Origin: Voacanga thouarsii
Taxonomy: Eukaryota > Streptophyta > Magnoliopsida > Gentianales > Apocynaceae
NCBI GenBank assembly: GCA_026120185.1
Contig: JANUWF010003377.1
Span: forward strand, 1,623,001-1,687,000
DNA: 64,000 nt
Reading direction: 5' to 3'
The position numbers and the translations under genes are program-made. This document shows positions 2,383 to 64,000 of the stretch, in pieces (position 1 is the stretch's first letter; each line of letters begins with the position of its first letter). The notes beneath the pieces were generated by a model. That model was not told where the DNA came from, did no database searches, and saw only the letters and a list, made by a program, of their open reading frames with translations.

Positions 2383-2488
2383 AGCCACATCAGAGTGCAA
2401 GGTTGGATTCCTTGCAGAAGCTTGCGGCTTCCGTGAGGAAGTACAATTGCAACTTGCAATTGCGCGGTTAGCAATTTTGATCGGCTGT
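2383..2488 (+). other. Element A untranslated leader, left fragment
   Basis: This is the short stretch between the solo LTR and element B. It contains the second copy of AGCCA (2383-2387) and ends with GCTGT (2484-2488), the target duplication of B. It continues at 9382. Confidence 0.75.
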
Positions 2489-11410: not shown

Positions 11411-12000
11411 CCCTCTCGTTCCTCACTTTACGGATGCTTGTACAAGGTTTGGTTATGTCTACCTGATGAGGCACAAGTCTAACTCTTTTGACAAGTTTAA
11501 AGAGTTTAAGGCTGAAGTGGAGCGTCAAACAGGTAAACTGTAATAAAACTTTACGATCGGATCATGGTGAAAAGTACCTCCTCGGTGAGTTCAAGGATTA
11601 TATGGTACATCATGGGATAATATCACAACTCTCTGTGCCTGGTACACCCCAACAGAATGGAGTAGTTGAGAGAAGGAATAGGACATTAATGGAAATGGTC
11701 TGAAGTATGATATCTCATGCTACTCTTCTGGTCTCTTTTTGGGGATATACCTTGGAAACGGCGGCATACATTCTGAATTTGGTGCCTTCCAAGTCAATAC
11801 ATAGGACACCCTATGAGATGTGGATTGGACGTAAGCCAAGTCTAAATCATCTTAGGATATGGGACAGTCTAACTTATGTACTAATCAAGGGAGACAAGTT
11901 AGAACTAAGATCAGAATTATGCTACTTTATTGGGTATCTAAAAGGGACAAAATGAGGTTACTTTTATCATCCCAATGAGTAGAAAGTACTGGTAAGTACT
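11411..12000 (+). pseudogene. Integrase fragment of copia element A
   Basis: It covers the second half of the integrase core, with SDHGEKYLLGEF (second catalytic D region) and QQNGVVERRNRT (catalytic E region), then the conserved EMWIGRKPS segment. Stops lie after EMV and GTK. It is cut at 12000 by a solo LTR, and the coding sequence resumes at 13761 within the phrase VST-NARYLEDD, matching VSTNVKYLEDD of B. Confidence 0.88.
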
Positions 12001-13760
12001 TGTTGGGAAGTATGCCCTCTTAGACTAGATTTCTAATGTAAAAATCGAACATTTTAATAAAAGAATTTATTTTCAGAAATCGTTTGTAAATTTACTTATT
12101 TGTGCACAATATCGTTTGGAAAAGACCTATTGTGTTTAAGTAAGTGATCTATGTAAATGGAGGTCTTTTATAGTAAGGAATGGATCACGGGTTACTTAAC
12201 ACATAGACATTCGTTCTTAACCGATTGATGAGAATGAAAATCTCATCATATCTAGGTTATTATGTTATAAATTCCAAATGGGGAATGGCTTACCTTTAAC
12301 CAGTGAGCAGTCCACTCACTTCATAACATAAACATATTTTGAATACGTAGAACAGGACCTGTAGTAGTGGTTTCTTAAAAGTACTATATGGTAGAAACCT
12401 AGACTACTACCGCTACAGCGTAGACTAGTACTCTACGACTTGAGTATGAATTAGTGGTCTGAAGAAGCTGGAAGCATATACTTTGATATGCTATAATTGA
12501 AATTCTATCATAGTGCCAATATACTTGTATGTTGGGTATATGTGACTAGTTAGTTAAGACAGACTTGTACAAGATAGTTTCTATACTATATCATCCCTTG
12601 TGGTTGTCTGAATAATCTAAATGTCCAGGGCCCTGGGAAACATGATTTGGATGTTTGCTTTAGGGTAACTCCCTTGGAAAGCAGAAATATTTCAGGAAGT
12701 CGTGGATCATTGAACTAGAGGCCTAAGGATGGTAGATGTTATTTAGAGAGGCGTTAGTACACTTCTTCCTCTCTGAATGTACGGCGATGTATAGAGGAGT
12801 ATTTTAGTCATTATACCTGTAGGTCGGAGACTTTACTAACGCAGCATTGTCCTTGGGGTCAATATTTTCTTATGGTGATATTAGGAAATATTTAAAATGC
12901 AAAATACAACTATTTATATAGTAGGGGTATTTTGGTCATTTTAGTGGCCAAGGCGATGTGTCCTTTTGGTCCTCGAAATAGCCCGTAAGTCCTAATTAAT
13001 TTTAGGTTGAGGAATTGGTTTTAGTTAAAGAGGAATATAAATTCAAGATGTTATTTGATAACATGGTAGAGTTTATTGCGAGAAAGAGAAGTTGATGGGC
13101 CAATTTATAATTCTGAGAATTTTATGGGTTCCAATTACAATTAGAGAATTGGAATTCTCAGATTTGGAAGAGACTTCCGTCTCTTTAGTTGGAAAGAAGA
13201 AAACATGGTTTTCTTTTTCCCCAAGCCCTCTCTCTCTCGTGACCTTTGGCTCTCTCTTTCTCTTGTGACCTTTACTTTTCTTGTTCTTTGTATTAACAAA
13301 GGATACAAGAGGTTGTAAGGTGATTCTTTTTTTGAAAAAAACTTTTGGTTCACCAAGTAGGTAGAGAGGACTCCTCCTCAACGGTTTTGGTTTTCACAAA
13401 ACAAGAGAGAAGGTTGAGACCATGCATTCCTCCTCTTGAGAGATCATTCTTCTTTACCCTTTGTTTCACCAACAAGAATTAGGTAGTGGAATATTCCGAC
13501 AACCGAAAAGCTTTGGCGTTCATCATTCATGCAAACAAGGAGGAGTAAAAGGTTAGCAGGTTTTCAACCGGAAGCTTCATCAATTGAGCAAGAAGGGGCT
13601 GTCCCTGAGGTTCAATCCATTCTTTTACAACTTAAGAGACTTAAGGCAATTAGAGGTATGTTTTAAATGCTTCCATACTACTGCTCTTAATGGTTTTTCT
13701 ATGCCTCTGTTTGTTCTCCATTTTTGCAACATACTCCTCTGTTTTACTGTCAAACTAACA
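12001..13760 (+). mobile_element. Solo LTR, subfamily of element B, inserted in pol of A
   Basis: It begins TGTTGGGAAGTATGCC and ends CTAACA. The 5-bp duplication GTACT lies at 11996-12000 and 13761-13765. Its start matches the LTR of B more closely than the LTR of A. It splits the A polyprotein within one codon region. The minus-strand open frames at 13073-13381 lie wholly inside the LTR and are not considered genes. Confidence 0.92.
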
Positions 13761-15535
13761 GTACTAATGCTAGATACTTGGAGGATGATCAAAGTAAATC
13801 CACTAAATATTCAACAAAGTTGGAATTCGAAGAGAAGCTATCTTCGGAATCAACTTCTTCAGACCCGATTATAAAACAAGAAAAGACACAGTCTCAAGAA
13901 CCTGTACAAATGGAGCTTCGTCGTAGTGGAAGGGTATCTAAAGTTCCAAAAAGATGGACAGGAGAGGCTTTCAAACTGGTCTCTGACCATCAGGAATAAG
14001 ATCCCACTAGAAACGAGGAGGCTATTGCTGATGCCGATGCAAATCTATGGCATGAAGCAATGAAAGTTGAGATTGAGTCTATGTATTTCAATCAGGTTTG
14101 GGATCTTGTAGCTTCACCTAAAGAGATAAAATCCATTGGGTGTAAATGGAAACCTTCAACGCTAGACTTGTGGCGAAAGGATATACTCAGAAAGAGGGAA
14201 TCGATTATGATGAAACCTTTTCCCCGGTAACCATGCTTAAGTCCATCTGTATCCTCCTTGCCATTGCATGTTATTTTGACTATGAGACATGACAAATAGA
14301 TGTCAAGATGGTATTTCTTAATGGCCATCTTAACGAAGATATCTATATGTCCCAATCGAAAGGTTTTATTGCTAAAGGTTAGGAACATATGGTTTGCAAA
14401 CTTAAGAAGTCTATTTATGGACTTAAGTAGACATCTAGAATATGGAACATTCATTTTGACGAGACCGTAAAGTCTTACGATTTCATGCAAAACGAGAATA
14501 AACTATACGTGTACAAAAAATTAGAAGGCATAAATGTGGTTTTTCTTATCCTATATGTGGATGACATTCTATTCATTGGGAATTATGTAGGAACATTATC
14601 ATCTACTAAGGTTTGACTATCTAATCAATTTAGTATGAAGGACTTGGGATAAGTTAGTTATATCTTCAGGATTAAGCTTCTTAAAAATAGAAAGTAGAGA
14701 ATGTTAGGATTATCCTAAATGACATACATTGACAAGATGCTGGTCAAGTTTAGCATGGATTCATGCAAGGGAGCTCTAATCCCTTGCAGACATGAGTTGT
14801 CTTTTTGTTCTAAGAACTGTCCTAAGTCTCGAGAGGAAAAAGATAAGATGAATAGGATTCCCTACGCTTCGGCTGTGGGAAGTCTCATGTATGTCATGCT
14901 GTACACTAGGTTAGATATCTACTTTATCGTAAGCTTAGTTAGTAGATATCAGTCAAACCCTCAGAAGGTTCATTGGTAAGCTGTAAAGCATATTTTTGGG
15001 TATCTCAATAGTATGAAAGATTATATACTGGTTTATAGGGCTGACGACTTGGTTCCTACTAGATACACAGACTCAGATTTCCAGGCAGATAAAGATGAGA
15101 GAAAATCCACTAATGGATATATCTTCACGTTGTCTGGAGGAACTATTTTATGAAGGAGTATCATGCAATCTTGTATTACTGACTCAACCATAGAAGCTGA
15201 GTATGTGGCAGCTTCGGAAGCATCCAAGGAAGCAGTCTAGCTCCAAAAGTTCCTTTCAGAACTTGGAGTTGTGCCACACGTGGACAGACCAATTGTGGTG
15301 TATTGTGATAACTTTAGAGTAGTTTCACAATCCAAAGAACCCAAGAACCACAAGAAGAGGAAGTACATCCATAGGAAGTACCACTTAATTCGGGATTTCA
15401 TTCAAAGACAAGAAATCGTGGTGGAACAGATAGACTTGGAGAACAACCTAACAGATCCCTTCACCAAGCCTTTAGCTGAGAAAGTCTTCAAGGGACACTT
15501 AGACGCTATAGGGGTAGGCACCTAGAGACTTTCTT
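13761..15535 (+). pseudogene. Reverse transcriptase and RNase H of copia element A
   Basis: It continues the polyprotein after the solo LTR: the linker YLEDDQSKSTK, then the reverse transcriptase with [12 protein letters not shown] (near 14200), LILYVDDILFIGN (near 14560) and SMKDLG. RNase H follows with YTDSDFQADKDER (near 15070), AEYVAASEA, YCDNFRVVSQSKEP and DPFTKPLAEKVFKGHL. More than ten in-frame stops and at least one shift (near 14140) are visible. It is collinear with B throughout. Confidence 0.9.
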
Positions 15536-15543
15536 AGTCTTAG

Positions 15544-15559
15544 AGTGCAAGTGGGAGAT
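15544..15559 (+). other. Polypurine tract of element A
   Basis: GTGCAAGTGGGAGAT lies directly upstream of the 3' LTR start TGTTGG at 15560, with the same wording as in element B. Confidence 0.85.
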
Positions 15560-17349
15560 TGTTGGAATATATGTCCTCTAGACTAGTTTTCTGATGTAAT
15601 TATCTAATTTATTAATAAAAGAATTTATTCTCAAAATTTATTTGTGAATTTACATTTTATTTGTAAACGATTTTTATTTGGAAATGACCCATTGTGTTTA
15701 AGTAAGTGATCTATATGAATGATAGTCTTTTATAGTAAGATATAGATCACGGATTACTTAACACATAAATGTTTGTTCTTGGCCGATTGATGAGAATGGA
15801 AATCTCATCATATTTAGATTATTGTGTTTTGAATTCCAAATGGGAAATGGTTTACCTTTAACTAGTGAGTAGTCCACTCATTTCATAGCAAGAGCGTTTT
15901 TCGAATACGTAGAGCAGGACTTGTAATAGTGGTTTCGAAAAATACTATTTAGAAGAAACCCAAACTACTACTGCTATAGCGTGGACTAATACTCTACCGT
16001 TTGAGTATGAGTTGGTGGTCTGACGAAGTTAGAAGCATATACTTTGATATGCTGTATTTAAGGTTCTTTCGTAAAATCGATATACTTGTATGTTGGGTAT
16101 ATGTAATTAGTTAGTTAAAACAGATTTGTACAAGATAGTTTTTGTGCTATATCTCTCCTTGTGACTATTCAAATTATCTAAATATCTAGGACCTTGGAGA
16201 ACATAACTTAGATGTTTACTTTAGGGTAACTTCCTTGGAAAGTGAAAACATTCCAAGAGTCATGGATCATTGGACTAGAGGTCTAAGGATGGTAGATGTT
16301 TATTAGATAGTTGTTAGTATACTCCTCCTCTCTAAATACACGGCGATGCGTAAAGAGGTATTTTAGTCATTACACCTGTAGGTCGAAGACTTTGCTAATG
16401 CAGCATTATCCTTAGGGTTAATATTTTCTTATGGTAATAATAGAAAATATTTAAAATACAAAATATAGTTATTTATATAGTATGAGTATTTTGATCATTT
16501 TAGTAGTCAAGGCGATGTGTCTTTTGGTACCCGAAATAGCCCTTAAGTCCTGACAGATTTGGATTAAGGAATTGGTCTTGATAATTATGGATTTTATTTT
16601 ATTTTATTTAATTAGTCTAATTTATTATTGGATTAGAATAAAATAAAAGGCCTGTGAGAGAGTATATATTTTATCTAATTTAATTGATTAATTAATTACT
16701 CAGGGTCCAAAGCCCAAATTGAATAATTAAAAAATTAATCTAAATATAAATTAGATAAAAGACCTAATATTTTATATTGGTCTATTTAAACTTGTTAATT
16801 ATTTATTGGACTGTTTATGAAGCCCAAAAAATAACTAATTGAGACTTATTATTTATGGATGTCCAAACCCAAGAGTAAATAATTTTATCTGACCCAATGA
16901 ATAAAACTAAGGGTAAAATAAAATTTAAATAAAAAAACAACACCGGATGGATCCCGTGTTGTTTTGTGCAATAGATAACAGAAAGTATGGAGCTTTCTGT
17001 TTTCATGCTGTTGGTCTCACTCTCTCTGTGATCGCATGAAATCAAGATCAAAAGGAAAAAGCATGTAAAGGTCTGTAGAGTTTTTTCATAGAAGAAAAAC
17101 AAAGAGCTTTCACCGGCAAAGAAAAAATAGCAAACCAAACATTTTGTGAGCTTCACCGGCAGAGGAAAGGGCACCATTTCGGAAGCTTAAAAGTTTCGTG
17201 TGAATGAGACGAAGTCGACATTTATAAGGACGTGATCCAATAGTTTCAAACATCCTCGTACAGACATCTTCTTCAATGCCAAAAAGGTCATTCAAACACA
17301 AAAGTAAATTTTTCGTTCTGTAAGCATGCTTTTGGTTTGATCATTTTTG
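15560..17349 (+). repeat. 3' LTR of copia element A (about 1.79 kb)
   Basis: It starts TGTTGGAATATATGTCC after the polypurine tract. Its end matches 1-150. The exact 3' boundary is uncertain because the two copies differ in the last 20 bases (CA at 17348-17349 is the best candidate). It shares the first 100 bases and many later blocks with the reverse solo LTR at 171-2382. Confidence 0.82.
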
Positions 17350-34810: not shown

Positions 34811-36539
34811 CTAAATGTTTAATATTTTTTTTTCTTAACATTCTGCGTGAGGTTAAAAAGAAAAATAAACTAAATAAGGTACAGTAAATTTACTAATAGT
34901 TAAACCTTAGAAAGCATGAATAAAATAAAACAAAATAAAAATCTTCATTGCATATAATTGAATACATATATGCATATAAATGAATTATATATATATACTA
35001 AAAAATTGAATTCTTCATTTATTTTGATAACATGTCTTATTTGAACATCAACATGCTATCGCGGGCAAAAAAACTCAAATTTATAGTTTATATGGTTTGT
35101 AAAATTTTAAGATACTAACCGCGTCTTTATTCCTATTGATTAATTTACTTTATAAAGGGATTAAAGTGTTTGTACTTATAAACTTAATAAAGTCCCCCCC
35201 CCCCCAAAAAAAAAAACTCTAAAACTAATTACTGAGGCGTATATACTAATAGAACTAAAAATTTCTTATAAAAATAAAAAATTTTAATAATGTCCTTTTC
35301 AAATTTATTTTTCATCTCCTAATTTTTTTTCCAAAGTTATAATATTATTTTTTAACATATTATTTCATATATTCCTATGACTCTCAAACTCCAATTTTTT
35401 TGATTCTGTATCTGGGTATATATATCATTTTATATGCCCTTTGGCAATCAGTTTATTTGAATAATCATCAATGCAAGTAAAATACACGATTTTAAACTTA
35501 AAGCACTAAAATATTTATACAATGTAAACTCAATAGGAATAAATTATAATAAACCTTTATATGTCGTATGTTTTCTTTATAAATAAAATAAAATGTACAT
35601 GTGTTGTTAATGAATGTGGCCATTTAAAACCCATTCTTGCCGTCAACAAAAGAAAAATATGGTTCTGTCCTAACCTTGAAAAAAAGGGCAATTTAGAGTC
35701 ACAAAGTGCACTGCCTCAAATCCTTATATAAATAGTGGTAATTTAGGTCACAATCTAATTATAAACATCTAACTTTATTTATGAATAAATAAATATGGCA
35801 GCTAAAATTAAGTTCATAGGTGTCGATTTAAAATCTTAAAAAATATTCAGTAATAGAAAAGTTAAACAAATTTAATAGATTTAAATGGATATCCAATCTA
35901 ATATATTCATTTAAAAATCAAATTATCAATTAATATTTATATATTTATAGAGTGAGTTTTTCTAATGCAAGAGTCTTACAAAGGTAGTACTGAAATAAAA
36001 TAGTTCTTTATTTGATTTAAGGGATGAGATCCATTAACACATGGTCCCCTCATTAATCACTTTAATTAACAAATATAAGGTGGTAAAAGAAAATATTTAT
36101 TTATTTAATAAAAATTATAAATGGATGAATATGGATAAATGAATATCTAAAATTTATTTATATCCATTTATTAAATCTATTTAATAAATAAACCTAAATG
36201 AATTGGATTTAAATAGATTGTACTCAAATAAATATTCATATTACCTCTACTAAGACTGTCCATGTACAAACTATATTGAAAGCCACGTTTGGTCTTTCTT
36301 TCTATGGCGATTGAGACAGAGATGGAGGCAAGGCGATGGGGATGGAGTTTACCCTTAGAATTTTTAAAAATCTTAATTATATCTGAATAAAATTAAATTT
36401 TTTAATAAAAGTCTTTTTGAAATTTGCCTTTCACTGCCAATTTTTTTTCAAAAATTATAGTATTATCTTCTAAGATATCTTTCAGTATAGTTTGCTCTCT
36501 CAATCTCAAGTTTTTAGTTCTTCCCTAAATAGAACATTA
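34811..36539. other. AT-rich intergenic stretch with low-complexity runs
   Basis: It contains a run of 14 C followed by 11 A near 35194-35216, and an imperfect inverted repeat around TTTAAATGGATATCC (35880) and ATATCCATTTATTAAA (36160). No gene was recognised. Confidence 0.45.
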
Positions 36540-36800
36540 GTCAATTCAATCCCTTATCTTTTATATTTTCGAGATTTATGTCTCTTTTCTTTTTTTTTTT
36601 TCAACTTTTTAAGTTCCCTAACTATTATTTTTGTGTGATTTTGATCATTTTTTAGGATTTTATTAGTCAAACCGTCATTTGATTAACGGAATACTAATAA
36701 ATGGACCAAAACAGTACAAAAATAATAGTTAGGAGACCTAACAAGTTGAAAAAAAAATGATTAAAATCGTCAAAAATAAAAATTAAAGGATTGAATCGAC
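36540..36800. mobile_element. Palindromic MITE, copy 1 (261 bp)
   Basis: The ends GTCAATTCAATCC and GGATTGAATCGAC are inverted repeats that extend inward for about 100 bases, so almost the whole element is a hairpin. TTA flanks both sides (36537-36539, 36801-36803), which suits a PIF/Harbinger-type target duplication. A second copy lies 0.9 kb away. Confidence 0.75.
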
Positions 36801-37670
36801 TTATTTTCTAAGTATACTTGTAAAGTATATATAAGTTTCATAAATTAATAATCTAATTGTTAGATTTTCTATAAAAGTTAAAAAATTAAATATATTAAAT
36901 TTTAATCACATTGGATATAATTTGTCATTTTATCAAATACTTAAATACTGTTATACTGTGTTGTTTACTTAATTTAAAATATATGACTATCAAATTAATG
37001 ATATATCTATTCATTTAGTTTGTATCATATGAAAGATTTAAAAAAAAGAAAATTATTATTAAAATGATTATACTAACCATTCTATTGGATCAATTAAAAG
37101 CAAAATTAGAATATCAATAATGCAAATTAATTAAATTTTGGAAATATTCTTTGATTAAATTATTAATTTTTATTTTCGTTAAATAATAAATTTTTCTTGA
37201 AATTCTGTTCCAAAATTTCTCCTAAATTTGAGATATATTTGCATTGAATTCTTTTATTAATTTTTTTCTTTTTATTTTTCATTAAATAATAAAAGTTCTT
37301 AAAGAATCTATTCCCAATTCTATTCAAAGTTGGAAATAATTCCTTTATTATTTTTTAAATTTTTTTATTAACTAACCATCTTTATCTTGGAATAGATTCC
37401 TCTATAAGAATTTGCATACCAATTCCATCCCAAAAGTTGGAACGGATTTTTTAATTAATTTTTTATTTTCTATTAAATAATATATATTTTAAGAATTTGT
37501 TCCAAATTTTAACTAAATTTAGAATAGATTTACAACAAATACTTTTATTACTTTATTATTTTTAAAAATAAAATTTTAAGCATTCATCTTAAATCCATCT
37601 TTAATCCTTCCAAATTTGAAAGCAAATTTTTTAATTATTTTATTATTTAAATAAAAATTAGCCAACTCAA
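36801..37670. other. AT-rich spacer between two MITE copies
   Basis: Repeated phrases such as CCAAATTTG, GGAATAGATTCC and TTTTTAATTAATTTTTTATT occur several times (37150-37630), suggesting an old internally repeated element. No coding sequence was seen. Confidence 0.4.
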
Positions 37671-37927
37671 TCCCTTAACTTTTATATTTTGAAGATTTAG
37701 GTCCCTTTTCTTTTTTTTCAACTTGTTAGATCCCCTAACTATTATTTGTATGCCGTTTTGGTCCTTCTATTAGGATTTCGTTAGTCAAATGACGGTTTGA
37801 CTAATGGAACACTAAAAAAAGGACCAAAATCGCACAAAAATAATAGTTGGGACCTAAAAAGTTAAAAAAAAAAAAAAGAAAAGTGATCTAAATCTTTAAA
37901 ACATAAAAGTTAAAGGATTGAATTGAC
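37671..37927. mobile_element. Palindromic MITE, copy 2 (about 257 bp)
   Basis: Same family and similar length as 36540-36800: it begins GCCAACTCAATCCC and ends GGATTGAATTGAC with long inverted arms. Flanks are TTA on the left and TAA on the right, so the duplication is imperfect or the boundary is off by a base. Confidence 0.72.
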
Positions 37928-38362
37928 TAATTTTTTCCCTAAATTGAGATCAAATTACATCTTTTCATTCTTTCACTTTTTCTTTTTTCTTTATTTGTTC
38001 TATTGTACTTATCCATTCCCAAACATGTATCACTTTTAGAGAATATACACTTTAAAAAACTAATAAAATTATAAGACACTAAAAAAAAGACTGACTATAA
38101 AAATTAAATTATCAATTAATTACTTCTTTCTTGCTCTTATCTTTTCCCCCTTTTCCTCTTTGGAAAGCTAAGAGTTGTATAGCATAGGAGAGACTAAAAG
38201 ATAGTATAGAAAATTAAATATTCAAAAGATTGAAGATAGTAAAATTAGTAGGTAAAATTAAAAGCCAATTATATAATGGTTTAATAGATTATTATAAGAA
38301 AAAAAACAAATAAATGACTCTTTGATTTTACGAAGTGATAGATATTAGAGAATGGATGCAGT

Positions 38363-38714
38363 TGTTATAAAATTAGGGTAGTGTTAGAATAAAATCTTCA
38401 CACTACACATTAATAAAACTCTAACTATTTTGCACAAGAATTTCTCTCTTTCTTTTCTCTCACAATTTTCTCTAATCTTTCTTTCACTAATCTTTCTTTC
38501 ACAAAATAATGGTGTATTACAAGCTTAGAGAATAGCTCTATTTATAGAGCTCTAATTAGTGAAATACATCATGGCATACATCATCTTCAACTAATCTCAA
38601 TTAATGGTGTCTCCACTAAATGGTGGACATCCATAAAAATCTTCTAATAATTCACATAAATCCATAATTAGTGGAGCCTCCACTAATTAATGGAGATTCC
38701 AATAATTCATAACA
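38363..38714 (-). repeat. 3' LTR of element D (352 bp)
   Basis: It starts TGTTATGAATTATTGG at 38714 (minus strand) and ends TTTTATAACA at 38363, differing from the other LTR by one base. On the minus strand CTATAAATAG (38547-38538) is the TATA-like box. Confidence 0.95.
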
Positions 38715-38723
38715 CTCCCCCTT
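38715..38723 (-). other. Polypurine tract of element D
   Basis: AAGGGGGAG on the minus strand directly abuts the 3' LTR. Confidence 0.85.
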
Positions 38724-38838
38724 GGATGTCCATCCATACATAAAGAATATGCCTCGTTAAAACCTTACTAGATAAAAACCCAGTGGGAAAAAAAATCTAG
38801 TGAAGGAAAAAGAGTACACTATTCTATATGTCTGTTTA

Positions 38839-41020
38839 TTACTCCCCCTGATAAGATGATTCTTTTAAATCTTTAAACCGATGCATACCGATTTTATATC
38901 TCAACTTCTCAAATGTTGCAGTTGGTAAAGTCTTCGTGAAAATATCTGCGAGGTTGTCACATGACCGAATTTGTAGCACATCAATTTCACATTTCTTCTG
39001 GAGTTCATGAGTAAAGAAGAATTTTGGTGAAATATGTTTTGTCCGATCTCCTTTAATATATCCTCCTCGTAATTGAGTTATGCAAGCTGCATTGTCTTCA
39101 TAAAGAGGAGTTGGAATATCTTTGATTGATGATAATCCACAACTTTCTCGGATATAATGAATCATGGATCTTAGCCATACACATTCTCGACTTGCTTCAT
39201 GAATGGCTATAATTTCAGCATGATTTGAAGAAGTAGCTGCTATAGATTGTTTCGTAGAACGCCATGATATAGCAGTATTTCCACATGTAAATAGATAGCC
39301 CGTTTGAGAACGTGCTTTATGTGGATCAGATAAATAACCAGCATCTGTATAACCTATCAATGTTGGACTAGTTTTATTTGAATAAAATAATCCGAGATCA
39401 ATTGTACCTTGGAGATATCGAAGGACTTGTTTAATTCCATTCCAATATCGTCGTGTTGGTGAAGAACTAAATCTTGCTAATAAATTGACAGCAAAAGCAA
39501 TATCAGGTCTTGTATTATTAGCAAGATACATCAATGCACCAATTGCACTGAGATATGGTACTTCAGGACCAAGGAGTTCTTCATCATTTTCTTGAGGTCG
39601 AAAAGGATCTTTATCCACATTTAATGATCGGACGATCATTGGAATACTCAATGGATGTGCTTTGTCCATGTAAAATCTTTTTAGCACTTTTGCTGTATAT
39701 GTTGATTGATGAATAAATGTTCCACTCTCCAAATGTTCAATTTGTAAACCAAGGCAAAATTTGGTTTTACCAAAATCCTTGATTTCGAATTCTCTTTTTA
39801 AATAATCAATTGTTTCTTGGAGCTCTTCAGGAGTTTCAATAAGATTAATATCATCAACATATATAGCTAATATCACAAATTTAGAACCAGATTTCTTAAT
39901 AAAAACGCATGGACATACCTGGTCATTTTTAAATCCCGCTTTCAATAAATATTCACTAAGATGTGTGAACCACATGCGCCCAGTTGGTTCAGGCCATATA
40001 ATAATTTCTGCAACTTGATGGAGTAATTTTTACGAGGATAATGTTTATATGCTTCAGGCATATGAAATCCTTCGGGGATTTTCATGTAAACATCATTTTC
40101 TAAATTTTCATACAAGTAAGCAGTGACAACATCTAATAGGCGCATATCTATCTTTTCATGTACTGCCAAACTGATAAGATATCGAAGTGTAATAGCATCA
40201 ACAACAGGAGAATAAGTTTCATCATAATCAATACCTGGTCTTTGTGAAAAACCTTGGGCTACTAATCGCGCTTTATATGGAACGATTTCACTCTTTTCAT
40301 TGCGCTTTCGCACAAATATCCATTTGTAGCCAACAGGTTTTACACCTTCTGGTGTTCGGACTGCAGATCCGAATACTTCACGTTTTGTCAGTGCATTTAA
40401 CTCCGATTGAATCGCATCTTTCCATTGCAGCCAATCTTTTCTATGCCGACATTCATCAACTGATATTGGTTTAGGATCATCACTATCCTGTATAACATCA
40501 AGAGATATTATATGCAAACATATGATCAATAATTGTTTCTATTCGATTCCAACTTCTACCGAAAGTGGTATAATGGATAGAAATTTCAGTGTTACTTTCA
40601 TTTATGTCTGGTTCTTTGTCATAAGCTTTCTCTTGGTCTTTATCATTCTTTACTTTAATATGATCATCTGTACCATTAATCCTCTCTTCTTTCGAGGATT
40701 TTTATCTTTAGAACCAAGAGGTCGGCCATGCTTCTGGCATGCTTTTGGCTCAGCAGCTATAGGTATAATATTTTGTTCTGCTGGAACTTCAATTCGAATA
40801 GGAGCATTTATAGCTAGCATATGCGATTTTGTTACTCTTCTAGAGTCAACAAAAGCGTCTGGCATTTGATTTGCAATGCTTTACAAATGAATTATCTTTT
40901 GAACTTCAAGTTCACACGCGCTTGTATGCGGATCAAGATAATTTAATGATATTGTCCAATCACGATCTTTCTTGTACTGTTTCTGTTCTCCCCTTAATTT
41001 AGGGAATAATGATTTCATAA
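38839..41020 (-). pseudogene. Remaining pol of element D: integrase C-terminus, reverse transcriptase, RNase H
   Basis: It starts at the junction near SLFPKLRGEQ (41010), collinear with TLFPKLGGEH of element E, and continues through the GRPLGSKDKNPRKKR linker (40700). A 195-residue frame (40529-39942) carries the RT fingers ([36 protein letters not shown]). A loss of one base near 39975 shifts the frame. The 378-residue frame at 39975-38839 then carries AIYVDDINLI and complete RNase H motifs (YTDAGYLSDPHKARS, HAEIIAIHEASRE, YEDNAACITQ). The latter half is clean, in keeping with youth. Without integrase core and protease it cannot act alone. Confidence 0.9.
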
Positions 41021-41186
41021 GAGAATAAGAAAATAAATATAAGAAAATGATGACAAGCAGGAAATGCCAAGAAAAATATCTATTTTTTTTTTCACTCTTC
41101 CCGGTACCGACTTTTCATCTTCCTCTCTTGTCTTTTCTTCTCCTCTGACCCTCTACCTACCATCTACCTCTTCTTCTTCCTCATAC

Positions 41187-41188
<2 letters not shown>

Positions 41189-41228
<40 letters not shown>
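41189..41228. repeat. (AT)20 microsatellite upstream of the RKD gene
   Basis: This is an uninterrupted AT dinucleotide array of 40 bases, 65 bases before the RKD start codon. It is likely length-polymorphic and lies where a TATA region or 5' leader would be. Confidence 0.95.
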
Positions 41229-41232
<4 letters not shown>

Positions 41233-41293
41233 CGATATATATCTCAGTTATCAGTCATTAGTAAACATCAAAAACAAAAATAAAAAAACAGAT

Positions 41294-42630
41294 ATGGAGA
41301 CTCGTAATTCATTTGAGACATGGTCAAATTTTGACTCGGTTTCTGCAGTAGATGTTGATGTATTTTTCTTTCCAAACCAACTGCTTCTGCCTAATTCGAA
41401 CGCAGAAGATTTTGATATGTTTTCCTTTGCAAACCACCCACTTCCTCCTAATTTCAGGTGAGATACCTTTGAGGGCTTCCATTTGTATTTAGTGTGCTTG
41501 ATAATGAAATTAAACTCTCTTTTGGTTTGTTTTTTATGTAAATCAGTGGAAGTTTTGAACATACTGCTTTGGACCAAGTTGATCTGCCCCTACAAGAGAC
41601 TGCTTTTGATACTGTTCCTCTTGATGCTATTCCTTTGAATGAGGATATGCTTGTGCATGATCCTTTCTACTCTCTAATGGATTTTGAACAAAGCCATAAT
41701 ATGTTTCCAGGTTATTATACATTTAAACATGGATTTTGAATGGTATTACCTTTACTGATATTATTTTCTTTTTCTAGGAGAAATAATGAGTGGTCTTGGC
41801 AACGATGTCGGAGTAAGTACTCATGAAATGCATAATATCGAAGTTCAAGATATTATTGCAGACAAAATTCCTGGGGAGAAGAAGATGATTAAGAGGCAGA
41901 GAGAGAAGAAGGGCAATAACTCCCAGACACTATCAAGAGAAACAATTTCGCAGTACTTTTACCTACCAATCAAGAGCGCAGCCAAAGAACTGAATATTGG
42001 CATAACCCGTCTCAAGAAAAGATGTAGGGAGTTAGGAATTTGTCGATGGCCTCACAGGAAATTGGTGAGATTGGAGACCATAATCAAGAATGTTCAGGTT
42101 CTCTCTCATACATACTTATAATTTGCAAGTATGAAACTATGAAAGATTTATAAATAAATAACCGATGATACCACTTCGATTTACAGGAGATGCAAAATAA
42201 AGAAGAAGGAGGACATATGGCTGAGAAGAAATTAAAAGAAGCCATTGCGATACTGGAATGTGAAAAACAGTTGGTGGAAGAAAGTCCTAATACGCAGTTA
42301 GAGGACCAAACACAGAAATTGAGACAAGCATGCTTCAAGGCCAAATATAATAAGAAATATAATAAACTTAAGGAGATCGTAAAATCTCAAGACTCATTTC
42401 GCAATAATTTTACGGCTAATTCTGCTGCTAGTCTCGATGCTGGCTCAAAGGGGAAAGAAAAGGAGGAGGATGTCGAAAAAGAGGAGCTGAAGTCCATAAT
42501 TACTAATTGTTTGTCTTCCTCTAATGTAAACATTGAAAAAGAACAATTACAAACCTTCATCTTAAATTTGTCAGCTCAATTACAAAAGAGCAACTATAAG
42601 CATGTATCATCAAGTTCATATGAACACTAG
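41294..42630 (+). CDS. RWP-RK (RKD-type) transcription factor, 363 aa, four exons, inside LTR element D
   Basis: Exons 41294-41457, 41547-41710, 41778-42097 and 42187-42630 join in frame with GT-AG introns of 89, 67 and 89 bases. The total is 1092 nt, with no internal stop. The acidic N-terminal half (1-140) has no known domain. A basic cluster KKMIKRQREKK (144-154) may be a nuclear localisation signal. The RWP-RK domain spans about 160-212, with ISQYFYLPIKSAAKELNIG, RLKKRCRELGI and the signature RWPHRK at 199-204, followed by the usual basic/leucine helix. Residues 217-300 are Lys/Glu-rich and likely coiled coil. The lack of a PB1 domain and the length fit the RKD subfamily rather than NIN-like proteins. 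RKD proteins are nuclear DNA-binding regulators of egg-cell identity, gametogenesis and embryogenic programmes. Intact exons and canonical splice sites suggest recent capture or selection. Whether it is expressed from its short upstream region is unknown. Confidence 0.92.
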
Positions 42631-42660
42631 TGATATGAATAAAATATGTTATGCTTCTTA

Positions 42661-43282
42661 TTAATGGAAATATTTTTTTTTCTTTATTATCTTTTCTGTT
42701 CCACTTCAGGTGGCCAGTATTTCTCTGTGATAAGGAAAATATTGAGTGTGTCCATGACCATAACCACGGCCACTGCCACAACTACGACTATAACGATAGC
42801 TTCTGCTGGAGCCAACAGCATTCACTTCTGGGAGTGCTGTTGAGCCAGTTCATCTGGCTTCATGATTTCTCAATAATAACTCATGTTAAATTTGTCAATT
42901 TTGGATACCCTTTTTCTCGATATTGTTACTATAGGACATGAAAAGTGGAGAATGTCTTCTCCAATATAACTTCATCAGTAACTTTTTCTCCGTAAAATTT
43001 TTTTTAACTAAGATGTAGTTTTATACATCACGGAGTTCACGGTTTTACAATCTTGTAACTTCAGGTGCAACCATTCATACCGTGCAGTGGGTAGTACGAC
43101 CATCTTCAGGTGGTCAAATCTTTCTTTTTATCCACATGACATATGGATCTCCTTTTTTTTAGCATTTAGATGCATTTCTGTATGACATATAAATTTTTTT
43201 TTTTCAGAAATATCAAGGGCTACAAATTCAAATTTAGCGAGATCAATAAATGCGTACCTGTCTTCTGGCTTTAATAACGGCA
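42661..43282 (-). pseudogene. Gag remnants of element D
   Basis: Short gag-like peptides occur in order on the minus strand in shifting frames: EFVALDISEK (near 43220), LLEKTFSTFHV (near 42960), LLRNHEAR (near 42875) and the RSYRYSRSCGSGRGYGHGH stretch (near 42770). They match the start, middle and pre-zinc-knuckle part of copia gag, but large parts are missing. The zinc knuckle and protease are absent, and the foreign segment begins just beyond. Confidence 0.72.
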
Positions 43283-43301
43283 GAGACTCGTGCTGATAAC
43301 G
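43283..43301 (-). other. Primer binding region of element D
   Basis: CGTTATCAGCACGAG directly follows the 5' LTR on the minus strand. The nearly identical CGTTATCAGTACGAG follows the LTR of element E at 60135, so this is the family's primer binding region. The tRNA partner was not assigned. Confidence 0.75.
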
Positions 43302-43653
43302 TGTTATAAAATTAGGGTAGTGTTAGAATAAAATCTTCACACTACACACTAATAAAACTCTAACTATTTTGCACAAGAATTTCTCTCTTTCTTTTCTCTC
43401 ACAATTTTCTCTAATCTTTCTTTCACTAATCTTTCTTTCACAAAATAATGGTGTATTACAAGCTTAGAGAATAGCTCTATTTATAGAGCTCTAATTAGTG
43501 AAATACATCATGGCATACATCATCTTCAACTAATCTCAATTAATGGTGTCTCCACTAAATGGTGGACATCCATAAAAATCTTCTAATAATTCACATAAAT
43601 CCATAATTAGTGGAGCCTCCACTAATTAATGGAGATTCCAATAATTCATAACA
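43302..43653 (-). repeat. 5' LTR of element D (352 bp)
   Basis: It is bounded by TG/CA and the duplication GCAGT (43654-43658). It differs from the 3' LTR only at 43349. Confidence 0.95.
43477..43486 (-). promoter_or_regulatory. TATA-like box in the 5' LTR of element D
   Basis: CTATAAATAG on the minus strand lies inside the palindrome GCTCTATAAATAGAGC. It would drive the element's genomic RNA, which is antisense to the RKD gene. Confidence 0.65.
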
Positions 43654-43906
43654 GCAGTATCATTTATTTAGTTGTCATATTTTTTAATCTTAGAACAGGG
43701 AGGTAGGTGTAATTAATAATTAATCTTTTCTAAATAATTTATCCTTGAAATTTATTAGTGGTAATTTGTGAAAAATGAATTAAAATAAATATTTTAAACG
43801 GACGTAGAAGATTGAAATTCTGCGCCAAAATATACAAATTCCTTCTGTGGTTTACTATAATCAATCTTCCGTTTTGGGGAAATGATCCGATGGTAGTAGG
43901 GATGAC

Positions 43907-44015
43907 TAGCAATGGTAATTGGGCCGGCCCGCACGATGCCGGGCCGGGCCCGAGGATCGGGCGGGCCGGTCCCGGATAGAGGCGGGCCGGTGCGGGCCAG
44001 CCCGTGGCTTATTCT
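43907..44015. repeat. GC-rich subterminal repeats, left end of hAT
   Basis: Multiple GGGCCGG and GGCGGGCC units lie within about 90 bases. The right end (47020-47140) has the complementary kind (GACCCGGACCGG, CCGGGCCCGACCCG). Such clustered motifs are typical transposase-binding sites of hAT elements. Confidence 0.75.
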
Positions 44016-44273: not shown

Positions 44274-46418
44274 CTAACTACTTGGTTCACCCCATTCATC
44301 ATCTGAGTCATCATCAATAATCCACGAATTAGCCGTCCTATCTTCGGCTGCAAACCAACTACTACAACACATTAACATCTCCAAAGTTTGAGGAGCCAAT
44401 CGAGATCTTCTTTCATCGATTGTTCGAGCGCTCTCACTGAAGACGCTTTCCGATGACACTCGTAGAGACTGGTGGTGTCAAAAGATCACGTGCCATTTTT
44501 GATAAAATGGGGTATTGACTTACATGAGCCTTCCACCAACCACAAATATCAAAATGCTGATCTTCATTTTCTACCAATGGCTGCATCTCATAAATTGCCA
44601 TCTCGTTGTAGGTAGTAGTCGATATTTTTTTACGTTTCATAATACCCCATGGATTAAATGCTAATGAAATTGACGAGGTAGATTTTCGCGGAGGTTGAAA
44701 GTGACTACTAGATGATGAAGCTTGCCTACTTAAACTAGGAGAACTAGAAGAAGAAGACTCAAACTCATACAAATTATACATGTCAGATAAAGCTTTAGCT
44801 GTTTTATCTTTTATGTCTTTTATCATACATTATTTAAGTGCTTATGATTCATCAAAATCTAATGTTTCATATAAATATTCAATAATACTATGAAAACCTG
44901 GCGTCTTTACTCTAGGATCCATACACAATGCCATACAATATAAAATAGGAATATTTTCATAATATTTTTTATATTTTTCAAACATACTTCTCATAAAAAA
45001 ATCATATTGGGGATGATACATATATTCACCAAAAATATGTGCTACCTTAGCAAGTGTTGGAAGAATATGATGAGTAGTGGGATAATAAGATCCCGATAAA
45101 AGTTCAGTAACTTCTTTGAAAGTAAATAAAAATGTTGAAAGTGTAGTACAATTTTCAAAATGAGCTTCAGATAGTGGAGGTTGAAAATTATTACTATTAC
45201 AAAATTCAATAAGTTGGTTTTGAAAAGGTATAACACTTTCAAACATATCTAAAGTTGAGTTCCATCTAGTTTTACAATCTAATATAAATTTTTTAAAAGA
45301 TACACCTTGTTCTCAGTATAATGCCTTAAAATTTTGTTACCTAGTTAGGGATGTTTTAATAAACAAAACAACATTTCTAATTATATTAACAATATCATCA
45401 ATATATTTATATCCTTCTTTAACACATAAATTAAGTATATGACAAGCACACCTAGTATGAAATAAAATACCATCTAACATAGGATTCATAGTATTTTTTT
45501 AAAATTGTTATGGCAGAATCATTATTTGAAGCATTATCTAAAGAAATAGAAATAATTTTATTTAAAATCCTATATTCACGACATGTTTGAGTAATCATTC
45601 TAGCTATACTACTATCTACATGAGGATATTCAAATAATTTAAAACAAATAGTTCTTTTTTGAACTAACCAATCATGATCTATCCAATGACATGTAATGCA
45701 TAAATAAGATTCATTAGTAATTGCAGTCCAACCATCACAAATAAGAGCAAATTTCCAATTACAAGAATCAAACATAGCAATTAGATACTCTTTCATTTCT
45801 TTATATATCTTTATTATATCATTTTTTAATGTTGTTCTAGGAATTCTTTTCCATGTTGGTTGACAATTATTTTGCATATATTGTTCATAATGTGGATTTT
45901 CTGCAAAATTAAAAGGTAATTTAGTTTGAACAATCATTTTAGCAAATGCATTTCTATTTTTTCTATGATCATATTGAAAATTACCAACCATTTGACCTCC
46001 TGTAGTACGTATTTGTTGTTGTTTAAGTAAGTTTTCTAACCAATCATTATGTGACATTTTCATATGTCTAACTAATGTTCCTGTCCCTCATCCCTTCTTA
46101 TGTGCATATACCGCTCTACAAATTTTACATGTTGCCCTATCACTATCATTATCTTTTTTAAAAAGATTTCAAACCACAGATGTTTTTGCTTTAGTTGTAA
46201 TATCCGTTGTTTCAACATCATCCTCACCTATATTAGATGCGTCGGGATTAATTATTGGAGTTGGTTGTGATTGCGAAACACTAACACTAGGACCTACTAG
46301 GACCTTCATCTTCATTACCTATTTCATTATTTATTAAATTCAAAGTTGGATCTATATTAAAATCAAAATGTGCAGATGATTGGGATGAAGAAAAATGATG
46401 ATATTGATTTGGATCCAT
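44274..46418 (-). pseudogene. Decayed BED-finger hAT transposase
   Basis: The start is at 46418 (MDPNQYHHFSSSQSS). A BED zinc finger lies near 46190-46070 (CKICRAVYAHKKG with the following H of the RHMKMSH stretch). The 46063-45452 frame carries the hAT core (ALICDGWTAITNESYLCI, SISLDNASNN). The 45246-44842 frame covers the middle, with YYPTTHHILPTL and MDPRVK. 44826-44274 holds the C-terminal dimerisation region (WWKAHVSQYPILSKMARDLL, then SESVFSESARTIDERRSRL after a frame change near 44450). At least four stops or shifts break it. It resembles plant RICESLEEPER/DAYSLEEPER-type transposases but is not a domesticated gene, since it sits in an intact element and is broken. Confidence 0.9.
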
Positions 46419-60134: not shown

Positions 60135-61423
60135 CGTTATCAGTACGAGACTCTACTGAAGTTGTTTTACTAAAAGTTATCATTACGGTGACACTATTGA
60201 AGTTTGCTATAACAAAAGAGGAAGGTAGTTTTTTTTTTTTTTTTTTTTTTTGCTGTTTGACTGTTCTATGAAAATCATACATTTATGGGAATTGCTTGGT
60301 TTCGTCATCTTTCTTAGAAAGCTTAACGTGATTTCTGGAAATGTCTTGGATCATCTATGTGTCTCTTTTCATAATAATTGATCAATTATTGATTATACAC
60401 TATTACCATGGATTGCGATTGTTACATATATAATTCTTCCAATATCATGTGAGTCTATGCACATAGATGAATAGCTATTCAGTTACCAAATTATGGGTCA
60501 CATAATTGCCTCATTTTGAATCAATTATTGTTCCCCTAATTATGGTTTTCACAGCAAATTTATGGATCCCGCATGTTGTGGATTAAAGTCATCAAAATGC
60601 ATAGATGACTTTATTAATCGCATCCATATTATCATAATTGGTATTATCCTTCAATTGGCACCGTCAATTGGCAATGATAAGCATAATGTGCTATATCATT
60701 CAAATGATAATTACCCTGATCCAATTATTACTGATTCAATTATCTTTTGATTTCTTATTTAAAATCTCTGATCATATTATTTAGTGCCTTGAGGAGCCGG
60801 AAATGAAATTTTTGGTGGAGGCTTTTTGCTTGACTTTAGAATAACAATAAATGGTTTAATACGCTTGGCTTTTTGGTGGATCTTTATTTGTATGCTTGGG
60901 GACCGTTGATTTGACATGTCAAGTGGCGCATGCTTAATTGTTGGACTTTCAATATGCTTGCAATGATGGAGTTTATGGATCTATGCTGTTTAATTAGCCT
61001 GATAGTAACTTATTGCTATTGTCCTAGTAGCTTTGATGATTGAATTGCATACTGTATATTTTAGCATTTATGTAAATGTTTTCTATACACTATCGGAATT
61101 TATGGACTTGCAAGGAGCTATTGATTATTTTCCAGTGCTGTTGAGTAGAATTAATGGTGAAACCTACACACTATGCTTTTGGATAATATTTTGAATTTCC
61201 TTCAGTTTTCTTAATTTGGAAGAAACCAATCTACATAATTGAAACATTTAACATTGTGTATCCTGCAATTGTATAAAGAAGTTGATTATAACTCCTTGCT
61301 CTGTTACTTTATTTTTGTTTATCTTACTATTGATTTAAGGGAGATTTCAAATAATGCCCAACAAATCGTTTAAAGTTTTTATTTTTTGAGTATTTAAATT
61401 TATAAATATTTTGTTATGCCCAA
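60135..61423 (+). other. Leader region of element E without recognisable gag
   Basis: It begins CGTTATCAGTACGAG (primer binding region), followed after about 90 bases by a run of T (60230-60251). About 1.3 kb lies where gag should be, but no gag core, zinc knuckle or long frame is visible. The stretch may be a replaced or badly decayed gag. Confidence 0.6.
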
Positions 61424-64000
61424 ATGGCTATTATTCTGCTTACTGGATACACAAGTGGCATTGAGGATATATGCCTAATTGATAGTAGTACAACACACAC
61501 CATATTGAAAGATAGAAAATATTTCTCTTATCTGCAGATGGGAGAAACAAATGTTAATACTATAAGTGGTAGTGTAAAGTTGATTGAAAGCTCTGGAAGA
61601 GCTACTATTATATTATCCGGAGGAACAAATTTTGTTATTCCTAAAGCATTATTTTCTTCAAAATCTCGAAGAAATTTATTAAGCTTTAAAGATATTCGCC
61701 GAAATGGATATCATATTGAGACAATGGAAGAAAATGGTTTTGAATATCTCTGTATTATTCAAATAATGTCAGGTAAGAAATCTTTATTAGAAAAGTTACC
61801 ATCTCTTTCATCTGGCCTATATAGCACAAAAATCCATGCAATTGAAGTGCATCATTCAGTAAATTAGAAGTTTACTGATTTTGCTACATTTATCATTTGG
61901 CATGACCATTTGAGTCATCCAGGAACTATTATGATGCGAAGGATAATTGAAAAAACGTATGATCATCCTTTGAAAAGTCAAAGGATTTTGACATCTGATA
62001 AATTTTCATGTGCTGCATGTTCTCAAGGAAAATTGGTTATTAAACCATCTCCAACAAAAGTAGAGTTTGAGTATCCAGTATTTCTAGAAAGAATTCATGG
62101 TGATATATGTGGACCAATTAATCCACCATGTAAGCAATTCAGATACTTTATGATTTTAATTGATGCATCGACCCGATGGTCGCATGTCAGTTTATTATCA
62201 ACTCGCAACTTGATGTTTGCGAGATTGCTTGCCCAAATAATTCGCTTAAGAGCGCAATTTTCAGATTATCCTATCAAAAGGATCCGTCTAGATAATGTTG
62301 GAGAATATTCCTCTCAAACCTTTGATGATTATTGCTTGTTAATTGGTATTACTATTAAACATCCAGTAGCTCATGTTCATACTCAGAATGGTCTAGCTGA
62401 ATCATTCATTAAACAGTTACAATTAATTGCTAGACCGTTATTAATGAGAACAAATCTCCCTACAATTACTTGGGGACATGCTATTTTACATGCTGCAGAA
62501 CTTGTGCGCATAAGGCCAACAAGTTATCACCAATTTTCTCCCTTACAATTGGCTTTTGGTTCCGAGCCAGATATTACTCATTTGAGAATTTTTGGGTGTG
62601 TCGTGTATGTACTGATAGCGCCAAATCAACGTACCAAAATGGGTCCTCAAAAAAGGTTGGGGATATATGTTGGGTATATTTCTTCCTCTATAATCAGATA
62701 CGTTAAACCATTGATAGGTGTTGTATTCACGGCAAGATTTGCTAATTGTCATTTTGATAAAACTTTGTTTCCTAAATTAGGGGGAGAACATAAACCACAT
62801 AAAGAGGAGCTTGCCTGGACAACATCATTGAATTATTTAGATCCGCGCACAAGCGCAAGTAAACTAGAAGTTCAAAAGATCATTCATTTGCAAAGACTTG
62901 CAAATCAACTGCCAGATTCTTTTGCTAACTCTACAAGGGTAATTAAATCGCATATTCCAACTATAGATGCCCCTATACGGATAGAAGTCCCAGCAGGACA
63001 ACATATAATTCCTATAGCTACTGAATCAAAAACATGTCAGAAATGTGGACGACCCATTGGTTCAAAAGATAAAAATCCCCGAAAGAAAAGATGATTAAAT
63101 AATCAGAATGATCCAATTGAAGAATTAGGAAAAAGGGATCAAGTGGAAACTGATGAAAAGATCCAAATATCTGAAAATAGTGAACAGAATAGTGAGATGT
63201 CCATTAATTATATAACTTCTGGCAGAAGTTGGAATCGGATGGAAATAACTGTTGATAATATTTTTACATACAATATAGCACTTAAAGTTTTAAAAGATAA
63301 TGAGGACCTTGAACCAACATCAGTTGAAGAATGTCGTTATAGAAATGATTGGCCAAAATGGAAAGATGCGATTCAATCGGAGTTAAACTCACTTGCAAAG
63401 CGTGAGGTTTTTGTACCTGCAGTCCGAACACCAGAAGGTGTAAAACCAATTGGTTATAAATGGGTATTTGTGCGAAAGCGAAATGAAGATAATGAAGTCG
63501 TAAGATATAAAGCACAACTTGTGGCACAAGATTTTTCGCAAAAATTGGGTATTGATTACGATGAAAAATATTCACCTGTGGTTGATGTAATTACACTCCG
63601 ATACCTTGTGAGTCTAGTAGCACGTGAAAAGATTGACATGCGTCTAATGGATATTGTGACTACTTATTTATATGGGAATCTTGATAATGATATTTATATG
63701 AAAATCCTAGAAGGATTTAGTATGCCTGAAGCATATAATTCTAACCCTCGTGAAAATTATTCCATTGAATTACAAAAGTCATAATATGGCTTAAAGCAGT
63801 CTGGACGCATGTGGTATAATCGTTTTAGTGAATATTTATTGAAATTAGGATATAAAAATGATCCACTATGTCCATGTATTTTTATTAAGAAATCTGGATC
63901 TAGTTTTGTAATAGTTGCGATATATGTTGATGATATTAACCTTATTGGGACGTCAGAAGAACTCCAAAAGGCAAGAAATAGCCTGAAGCAAGAATTTGAA
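61424..64000 (+). pseudogene. Copia pol of element E: protease, integrase, reverse transcriptase (partial)
   Basis: The protease-like frame 61424-61867 has CLIDSSTTHTIL, the D-S-S position where the family usually has DSG/DSA. After a stop, 61910-63094 begins with the GAG-pre-integrase HDHLSHPG and continues with the integrase: C-x2-C (CAACSQGK), HGDICGPI, RLDNVGEYSS and QNGLAESF give the D, D, E residues. A linker ends GSKDKNPRKKR and a stop. 63143-63784 holds the start of RT (WKDAIQSELNSL, YKWVFVRKRNE, GIDYDEKYSPVVD). After a stop in YGL(K) context it continues with AIYVDDINLIG near 63940 to the edge. With only about three stops it is moderately young. Confidence 0.9.

Follow-up and report, generated by a model that had tools for sequence, protein, structure and literature searches.

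A multicopy copia family of Voacanga thouarsii carries an antisense RKD gene of probable hAT-linked origin

Long terminal repeat (LTR) retrotransposons that hold a captured gene, or an extra open reading frame (ORF) in antisense, are already known. The closest described systems are Grande with its gene23, RIRE2, Retand and PvRetro13, which have an additional antisense gene in most copies of the family. According to the available text of a review on these elements (PMC7264820), the extra ORF lies between pol and the 3' LTR, that of Grande has its own promoter, and the origin and function of plant antisense ORFs are unknown, with similar genes outside transposons lacking; genes transduced by LTR elements are described there as mostly being in the same sense as gag-pol. 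Here, we describe a copia element in a 64,000-nucleotide stretch of the Voacanga thouarsii genome (contig JANUWF010003377.1; the whole stretch is referred to as the window), which carries a gene for an RKD transcription factor in antisense. Its RKD gene lies between a gag remnant and the reverse transcriptase (RT) region, the promoter is a putative captured upstream segment, and the origin is recognisable, as the gene has introns and relatives outside the element. What is new here is that the source gene is known, that introns are present, that the place is unusual, and that there is a codon-level signature of use. We consider it likely that the window holds a young copy of a high-copy, non-autonomous copia family bearing an RKD gene from a lineage also found beside hAT transposase genes, and that the encoded protein has been conserved and is useful to the element.

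Several other systems share part of these features. In Bs1 of maize and Rider/SUN of tomato, an LTR element contains or has moved sequence of a host gene; as described in the available text (PMC13317346), Bs1 holds partial genes without full-length ORFs and SUN is a single transduced segment, whereas here a whole, intron-bearing antisense gene is a fixed component of a family with many copies. In orchid Ty3/Gypsy elements, the AlkB (N6-methyladenosine demethylase) domain represents a host-type gene that became fixed in a lineage of LTR elements and is proposed to benefit the element. Those elements are Gypsy and carry an enzyme, whereas the present one is copia and carries a transcription factor gene; in a screen of 121 angiosperm genomes, 15 extra domains passed the filter, all of them in Gypsy-type elements, and the available text does not name RWP-RK among them (PMC9289625). 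Fungal transposons with TET/JBP genes, so far as their description is available (PMC12730594), have a regulatory gene beside a transposase, comparable to the RKD/hAT pairs described below (L020, L050/L057), but the gene and the hosts are different. RKD proteins maintain egg-cell identity, and their misexpression promotes embryogenesis; in Citrus and Fortunella, the RKD-type genes CitRWP and FhRWP are altered by transposons, affecting embryo formation, but there miniature inverted-repeat transposable elements (MITEs) sit in the promoter of a host gene, while here the element itself carries the gene (PMC9671666, available text). Among the matches listed in the open-access literature on RKD/RWP-RK with retrotransposons, hAT elements or gene-carrying LTR elements, we recognised no RKD-bearing transposable element in the text available.

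The unit at 38363-43653 of the window is 5291 bp long and has an LTR at each end. A preliminary description of this DNA had proposed two 352-bp LTRs, a GCAGT target duplication, a primer binding region and a polypurine tract, all of which were found: the LTR pair is near-identical, with one differing position in 352 bp, and the 5-bp duplication, a stretch resembling a primer binding site (PBS) and the polypurine tract are present, as is characteristic of LTR retrotransposons. The coding strand of the element is the minus strand, so that it reads from the 5' LTR (43653..43302) through the PBS-like stretch into the gag remnant, the foreign segment, the rest of pol and finally the RT/RNase H region. 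No transfer RNA gene was found within the window. The parts are as follows, with 5' and 3' given in the sense of the element.

38358..38362, no strand: target duplication GCAGT, left
38363..38714, minus: 3' LTR, 352 bp, 351/352 identical to the 5' LTR
38715..38723, minus: polypurine tract AAGGGGGAG, preceding the 3' LTR
38842..40538, minus: RT/RNase H region (RVT_2), two overlapping frames, frameshift within ~39945-40029
40539..41034, minus: remainder of pol upstream of RT, with stops inside; copia similarity until 41034
41035..41293, plus: captured promoter-side segment upstream of RKD; from 41050 partly like the hAT/RKD intergenic stretch of L020
41294..41457, plus: RKD exon 1, with 57-bp repeat units whose number varies among copies
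41547..41710, plus: RKD exon 2
41778..42097, plus: RKD exon 3, with the RWP-RK domain (amino acids 161-205)
42187..42630, plus: RKD exon 4, C-terminal part and stop codon
42690..43286, minus: gag remnant, frames broken; the label is a reading of the frames
43287..43301, minus: PBS-like stretch CGTTATCAGCACGAG, adjoining the 5' LTR
43302..43653, minus: 5' LTR, 352 bp
43654..43658, no strand: target duplication GCAGT, right

A copia-type RT was recognised by Pfam (RVT_2) in two overlapping frames, indicating that the RT region holds a frameshift. The gag remnant includes two stop-free pieces, neither with a Pfam match, and between it and the RT there is no room for a protease and integrase core, from which we conclude that the element is non-autonomous. 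This agrees with the earlier proposal that RKD had replaced the end of gag, the protease and most of the integrase. A second copia element in the window (61406-63967, plus strand, RVT_2 and rve) is 78% identical to the RT side. Similarity to a copia element elsewhere in the window ends at 41034 and similarity to the RKD locus L020 begins at 41050, which places the left junction at ~41035-41050; a junction near 41020 had been suggested, and it is real, but lies slightly further in. On the right side, similarity to the L020 locus stops at 42619.

The RKD gene of the window is open over four exons with three GT/AG introns and encodes 363 amino acids, in which Pfam detected RWP-RK (PF02042, E 6.7e-21). 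The product scores best against an RKD1-like protein from Cornus florida (42% identity), and protein comparison and a tree place it among RKD1/2-like proteins. Since the gene runs antisense to gag-pol, its introns are not introns in the RNA of the element, and all three can survive the RNA cycle unspliced.

The assembly to which the window belongs measures 1.3457 Gb in 1848 contigs; L labels denote stretches drawn from this genome. A profile search with PF02042 gave 3618 first-look candidates; the 150 that were scored all exceeded the cut-off (150/150). From these 150 RWP-RK matches, 20 were drawn as 9.9-kb stretches to form a first sample. Seventeen lay inside the same element, arranged either as LTR-RT-RKD-gag-LTR or as a truncated version of this, always with RKD in the same orientation, and 15 of the 17 had two LTRs. 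Exact 5-bp duplications, own to each copy, flanked 10 of these 15 (CTTAT, GCCAT, AAACT, TTTTA, TATAG, GAAAA, TATAT, CCAAT, AATTT and ACTAT); none was found in the other five. Copies with other target duplications, for which the preliminary description had proposed a search, were thus found, whereas the antisense orientation and the existence of a multicopy family go beyond it. As the RWP-RK matches recur in the same element, a one-off capture is ruled out.

Two queries spanning the junctions gave 2557 and 2853 first-look candidates, and 40 were scored for each. All 80 scored matches (40+40) covered nearly the whole query at 96-100%, and they represent, counting the window, at least 78 distinct places spread over 62 contigs. 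The copy number of the family is likely in the thousands, beyond the scored places. Copies were located through RKD or junction queries, so that copies free of RKD would escape. LTR identity among copies ranged from 367/367 (L028) down to 292/333 (L015). The window insertion itself is young, as had been proposed, but because the family has such old copies the capture is old, and a recent capture is ruled out.

The three exceptions in the first sample were L020, discussed below, and L009 and L010, which both group with RKD4-like proteins. By their position in the tree, L010:5604-5747 and L009:5518-5661 are RKD4-like genes outside the element, and the L010 gene is 62% identical to its best-scoring protein. 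Elsewhere (G000:C486:1180765-1182406), two RKD copies stand head-to-head in inverted orientation, with ~22 bp between the matched ends and stop-free matched stretches; this pair is a possible hairpin or small interfering RNA source.

A second sample consisted of 20 copies picked by the first junction, for which the domain was not used. Outside the window, a full RKD frame with stop codon was present in two of these (L032, L041), two were open but had lost the stop codon (L040, L047), and 16 were broken; by the same method, a single element copy out of the 17 in the first sample had an intact RKD (L022). The complete four-exon gene noted earlier is therefore real for the window copy, but exceptional elsewhere. 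Single-base insertions or deletions account for many of these breaks, and assembly errors could be behind some of them; L011, counted as broken, is interrupted by an insertion. The GT/AG borders were kept in 16/20 (intron 1), 18/20 (intron 2) and 15/20 (intron 3) of the junction-picked copies, and copies differed by insertions of 57 or 114 bp in exon 1, where the repeated unit corresponds to 19 amino acids.

The remaining locus of the first sample, L020, points to where the captured gene came from. It has no LTR in 9.9 kb, and aligns at 76% to the captured segment of the window element, over the exons, all introns and part of the upstream region. Its RKD gene has lost the start codon and contains in-frame stops. 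A hAT transposase gene (Dimer_Tnp_hAT, E 2e-26) faces it head-to-head from the other side of its promoter. A query over the hAT/RKD intergenic stretch of L020 found at least 50 matching stretches at 76-100%, including the L058 locus (40 of 2398 candidates scored). When a Nyssa RKD protein was used as the genome query, 207 matches were obtained (129 of 6588 candidates scored); eight RKD copies from this search (L049-L056) all lack intron 3, which is precisely absent, while other introns are kept where readable. L050 and L056 have 2.86 kb in common at 90%, and in L057, which extends L050, a hAT transposase with zf-BED, hAT-like_RNase-H and Dimer_Tnp_hAT domains adjoins RKD. The head-to-head arrangement of RKD and hAT transposase was seen at L020:2253-6265, L050/L057, L056 and L058, and involves at least two hAT types (L020/L058 and L050/L056).

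A tree built from the RWP-RK segment (65 rows, 84 columns, with 28/58 forks open) placed all 49 of 49 repeat-borne RKDs in one clade (98/89). Within it, the 39 copia-borne RKDs formed a clade of their own (100/95), which L020 and L058 adjoin (fork 91/85). The hAT-linked copies are probably the source of the copia-borne gene, and as the copia clade adjoins the hAT-side copies, the transfer would have run from hAT to copia. The simplest history suggested by these sequences is one in which RKD first came to lie beside hAT and was then captured a single time by copia. Alternatively, copia may have taken RKD straight from a host RKD gene, with the hAT elements acquiring theirs independently. The copia element holds no hAT transposase sequence, and a limited search of L020 found no pair of terminal inverted repeats with an 8-bp duplication that would enclose hAT and RKD as one complete hAT element, both of which would fit such a direct capture. 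Against it, L020 and L058 branch beside the copia clade and within the single clade of repeat-borne RKDs. As to the parental locus that the preliminary description proposed to look for, the closest LTR-free relatives recovered lie beside hAT transposase genes; no plain host RKD1/2 locus was among the matches listed for the PF02042 and Nyssa RKD queries. We therefore regard direct host capture as rather unlikely. As a separate observation, a hAT transposase remnant (hAT-like_RNase-H) with a 55-bp match to the L020 transposase lies to the right of the window element (44434-46087, minus strand).

Selection on the gene was assessed by the ratio of nonsynonymous to synonymous differences (pN/pS), calculated from pairwise codon comparison. 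CG and CHG sites, which mutate fast if methylated, were masked. The full set comprised 39 rows (38 copies and the window); ratios were also calculated for 18 rows of the first sample (17 copies and the window) and for 21 junction-picked rows. Over 39 rows, pN/pS was 0.49 for the whole of RKD, 0.93 for amino acids 1-150, 0.28 for amino acids 151-220 (RWP-RK) and 0.32 for amino acids 221-363; for amino acids 151-363 together it was 0.31 (95% codon bootstrap 0.22-0.47). The first sample was picked by the domain and is biased towards domain conservation, but the junction-picked rows, which are free of that bias, gave 0.24 (0.13-0.47) for the same segment. Compared like for like in the 18 rows, amino acids 151-363 stood at 0.37 (0.26-0.56) and the RT at 1.14 (0.86-1.56). 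When the forward frame was shifted by one or two bases, the ratio for this segment rose to 1.08 and 1.99 in the 39 rows, and to 1.52 and 3.92 in the junction-picked rows. Unmasked ratios pointed in the same direction (RKD 0.42 in 19 rows; RT 0.77 and 0.65). We take this as moderate to good evidence that the spreading family conserved the DNA-binding and C-terminal parts of the protein and left the N-terminus and the RT free to vary.

Several results weigh against a conserved and useful protein. RKD is broken or stop-less in 34/37 sampled copies outside the window. Changes shared among copies did not differ significantly from singleton changes (p 0.37 in 39 rows, 0.87 in the junction-picked rows), although the same comparison was not significant for the RT control either, and RKD exons were not less variable than its introns. 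Copy pairs are not independent, and the bootstrap covers codons only. One of the three antisense frames of amino acids 151-363 was also low (1.16, 0.41 and 1.93). No autonomous partner element turned up, with no search aimed at one having been made, and the hAT termini missing from L020 belong here as well. The broken copies, the shared and singleton changes and the exon variability, together with the unconstrained N-terminal half, would suit a neutral passenger, caught once and copied along without a role, the low pN/pS being a leftover or a product of mutation bias. Yet such a passenger should not differ from the RT next to it, which is neutral in the very same rows, nor should its constraint be confined to the RWP-RK and C-terminal parts or vanish in the shifted forward frames. 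We consider it improbable that RKD is only carried along.

A further possibility is that the kept feature is an antisense RNA rather than a protein, with transcripts from the RKD promoter pairing with the RNA of the element and regulating it, a role that has been proposed for antisense ORFs in general (PMC7264820, available text). This seems very improbable, as the constraint tracks the DNA-binding domain and the RKD codon frame, and over exons 3-4 the antisense strand stays open for 100 codons at most; for the latter reason, we take the antisense ratio of 0.41 to reflect shared wobble positions. Finally, two separate LTR insertions around an ordinary RKD locus, or misassembled junctions, can be dismissed, given the identical GCAGT on both sides, the same junctions at all those places on 62 contigs, and the other copies with other duplications: the former is ruled out, and the assembly artefact that had been raised as a concern is very unlikely.

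Taken together, we favour a conserved RKD gene that serves its element, and propose the following course of events. In a founder element, an antisense RKD1/2-like gene, complete with upstream region and three introns, would have taken the place of the part from late gag to the end of integrase, possibly when copia RNA or DNA recombined with an RKD copy or through template switching between the two. With neither protease nor integrase of its own, the family must rely on another element, presumably a related copia, to move it in trans. RKD would be expressed from the captured upstream region. Given that the RT drifted whereas the RWP-RK and C-terminal parts stayed conserved, the protein most likely does something for the element. 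As RKD proteins keep egg-cell identity and promote embryogenesis, the likeliest benefit would be activity in cells that found the next generation, with RKD as an accessory regulator working within the egg-cell or early-embryo programme, in which new insertions are inherited, or helping to open that programme. It may act through the LTRs of the element itself. More tentatively, and with somewhat less than even chances in our estimate, an egg-cell/embryo-type regulator may have become a portable accessory gene of transposons, passed from hAT to copia, kept functional by element-level selection and, with its hundreds to thousands of copies, selfishly driving or exploiting the egg and early-embryo programme.

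The window contains further repeats. Paired repeats of ~1 kb, resembling LTRs of another family, occur at 1360-4424 and 12000-16579 in a nested inverted arrangement. A ~290-bp repeat at 36526-36807 and 37648-37934 has self-matches in direct as well as inverted orientation, as a palindromic MITE-like repeat would, and a GC-rich palindromic stretch lies at ~43920-43990.

The antisense gene of the RKD element has introns, fixed junctions and a codon signature, its origin is recognisable and it has a probable donor; with these, the origin and function of such a gene become testable. If the protein is made, a single genome would harbour a large store of gene copies for a type of regulator able to promote egg-cell or embryo programmes, which would bear on apomixis, on the germline control of transposons, and on the counting of plant transcription factor families.

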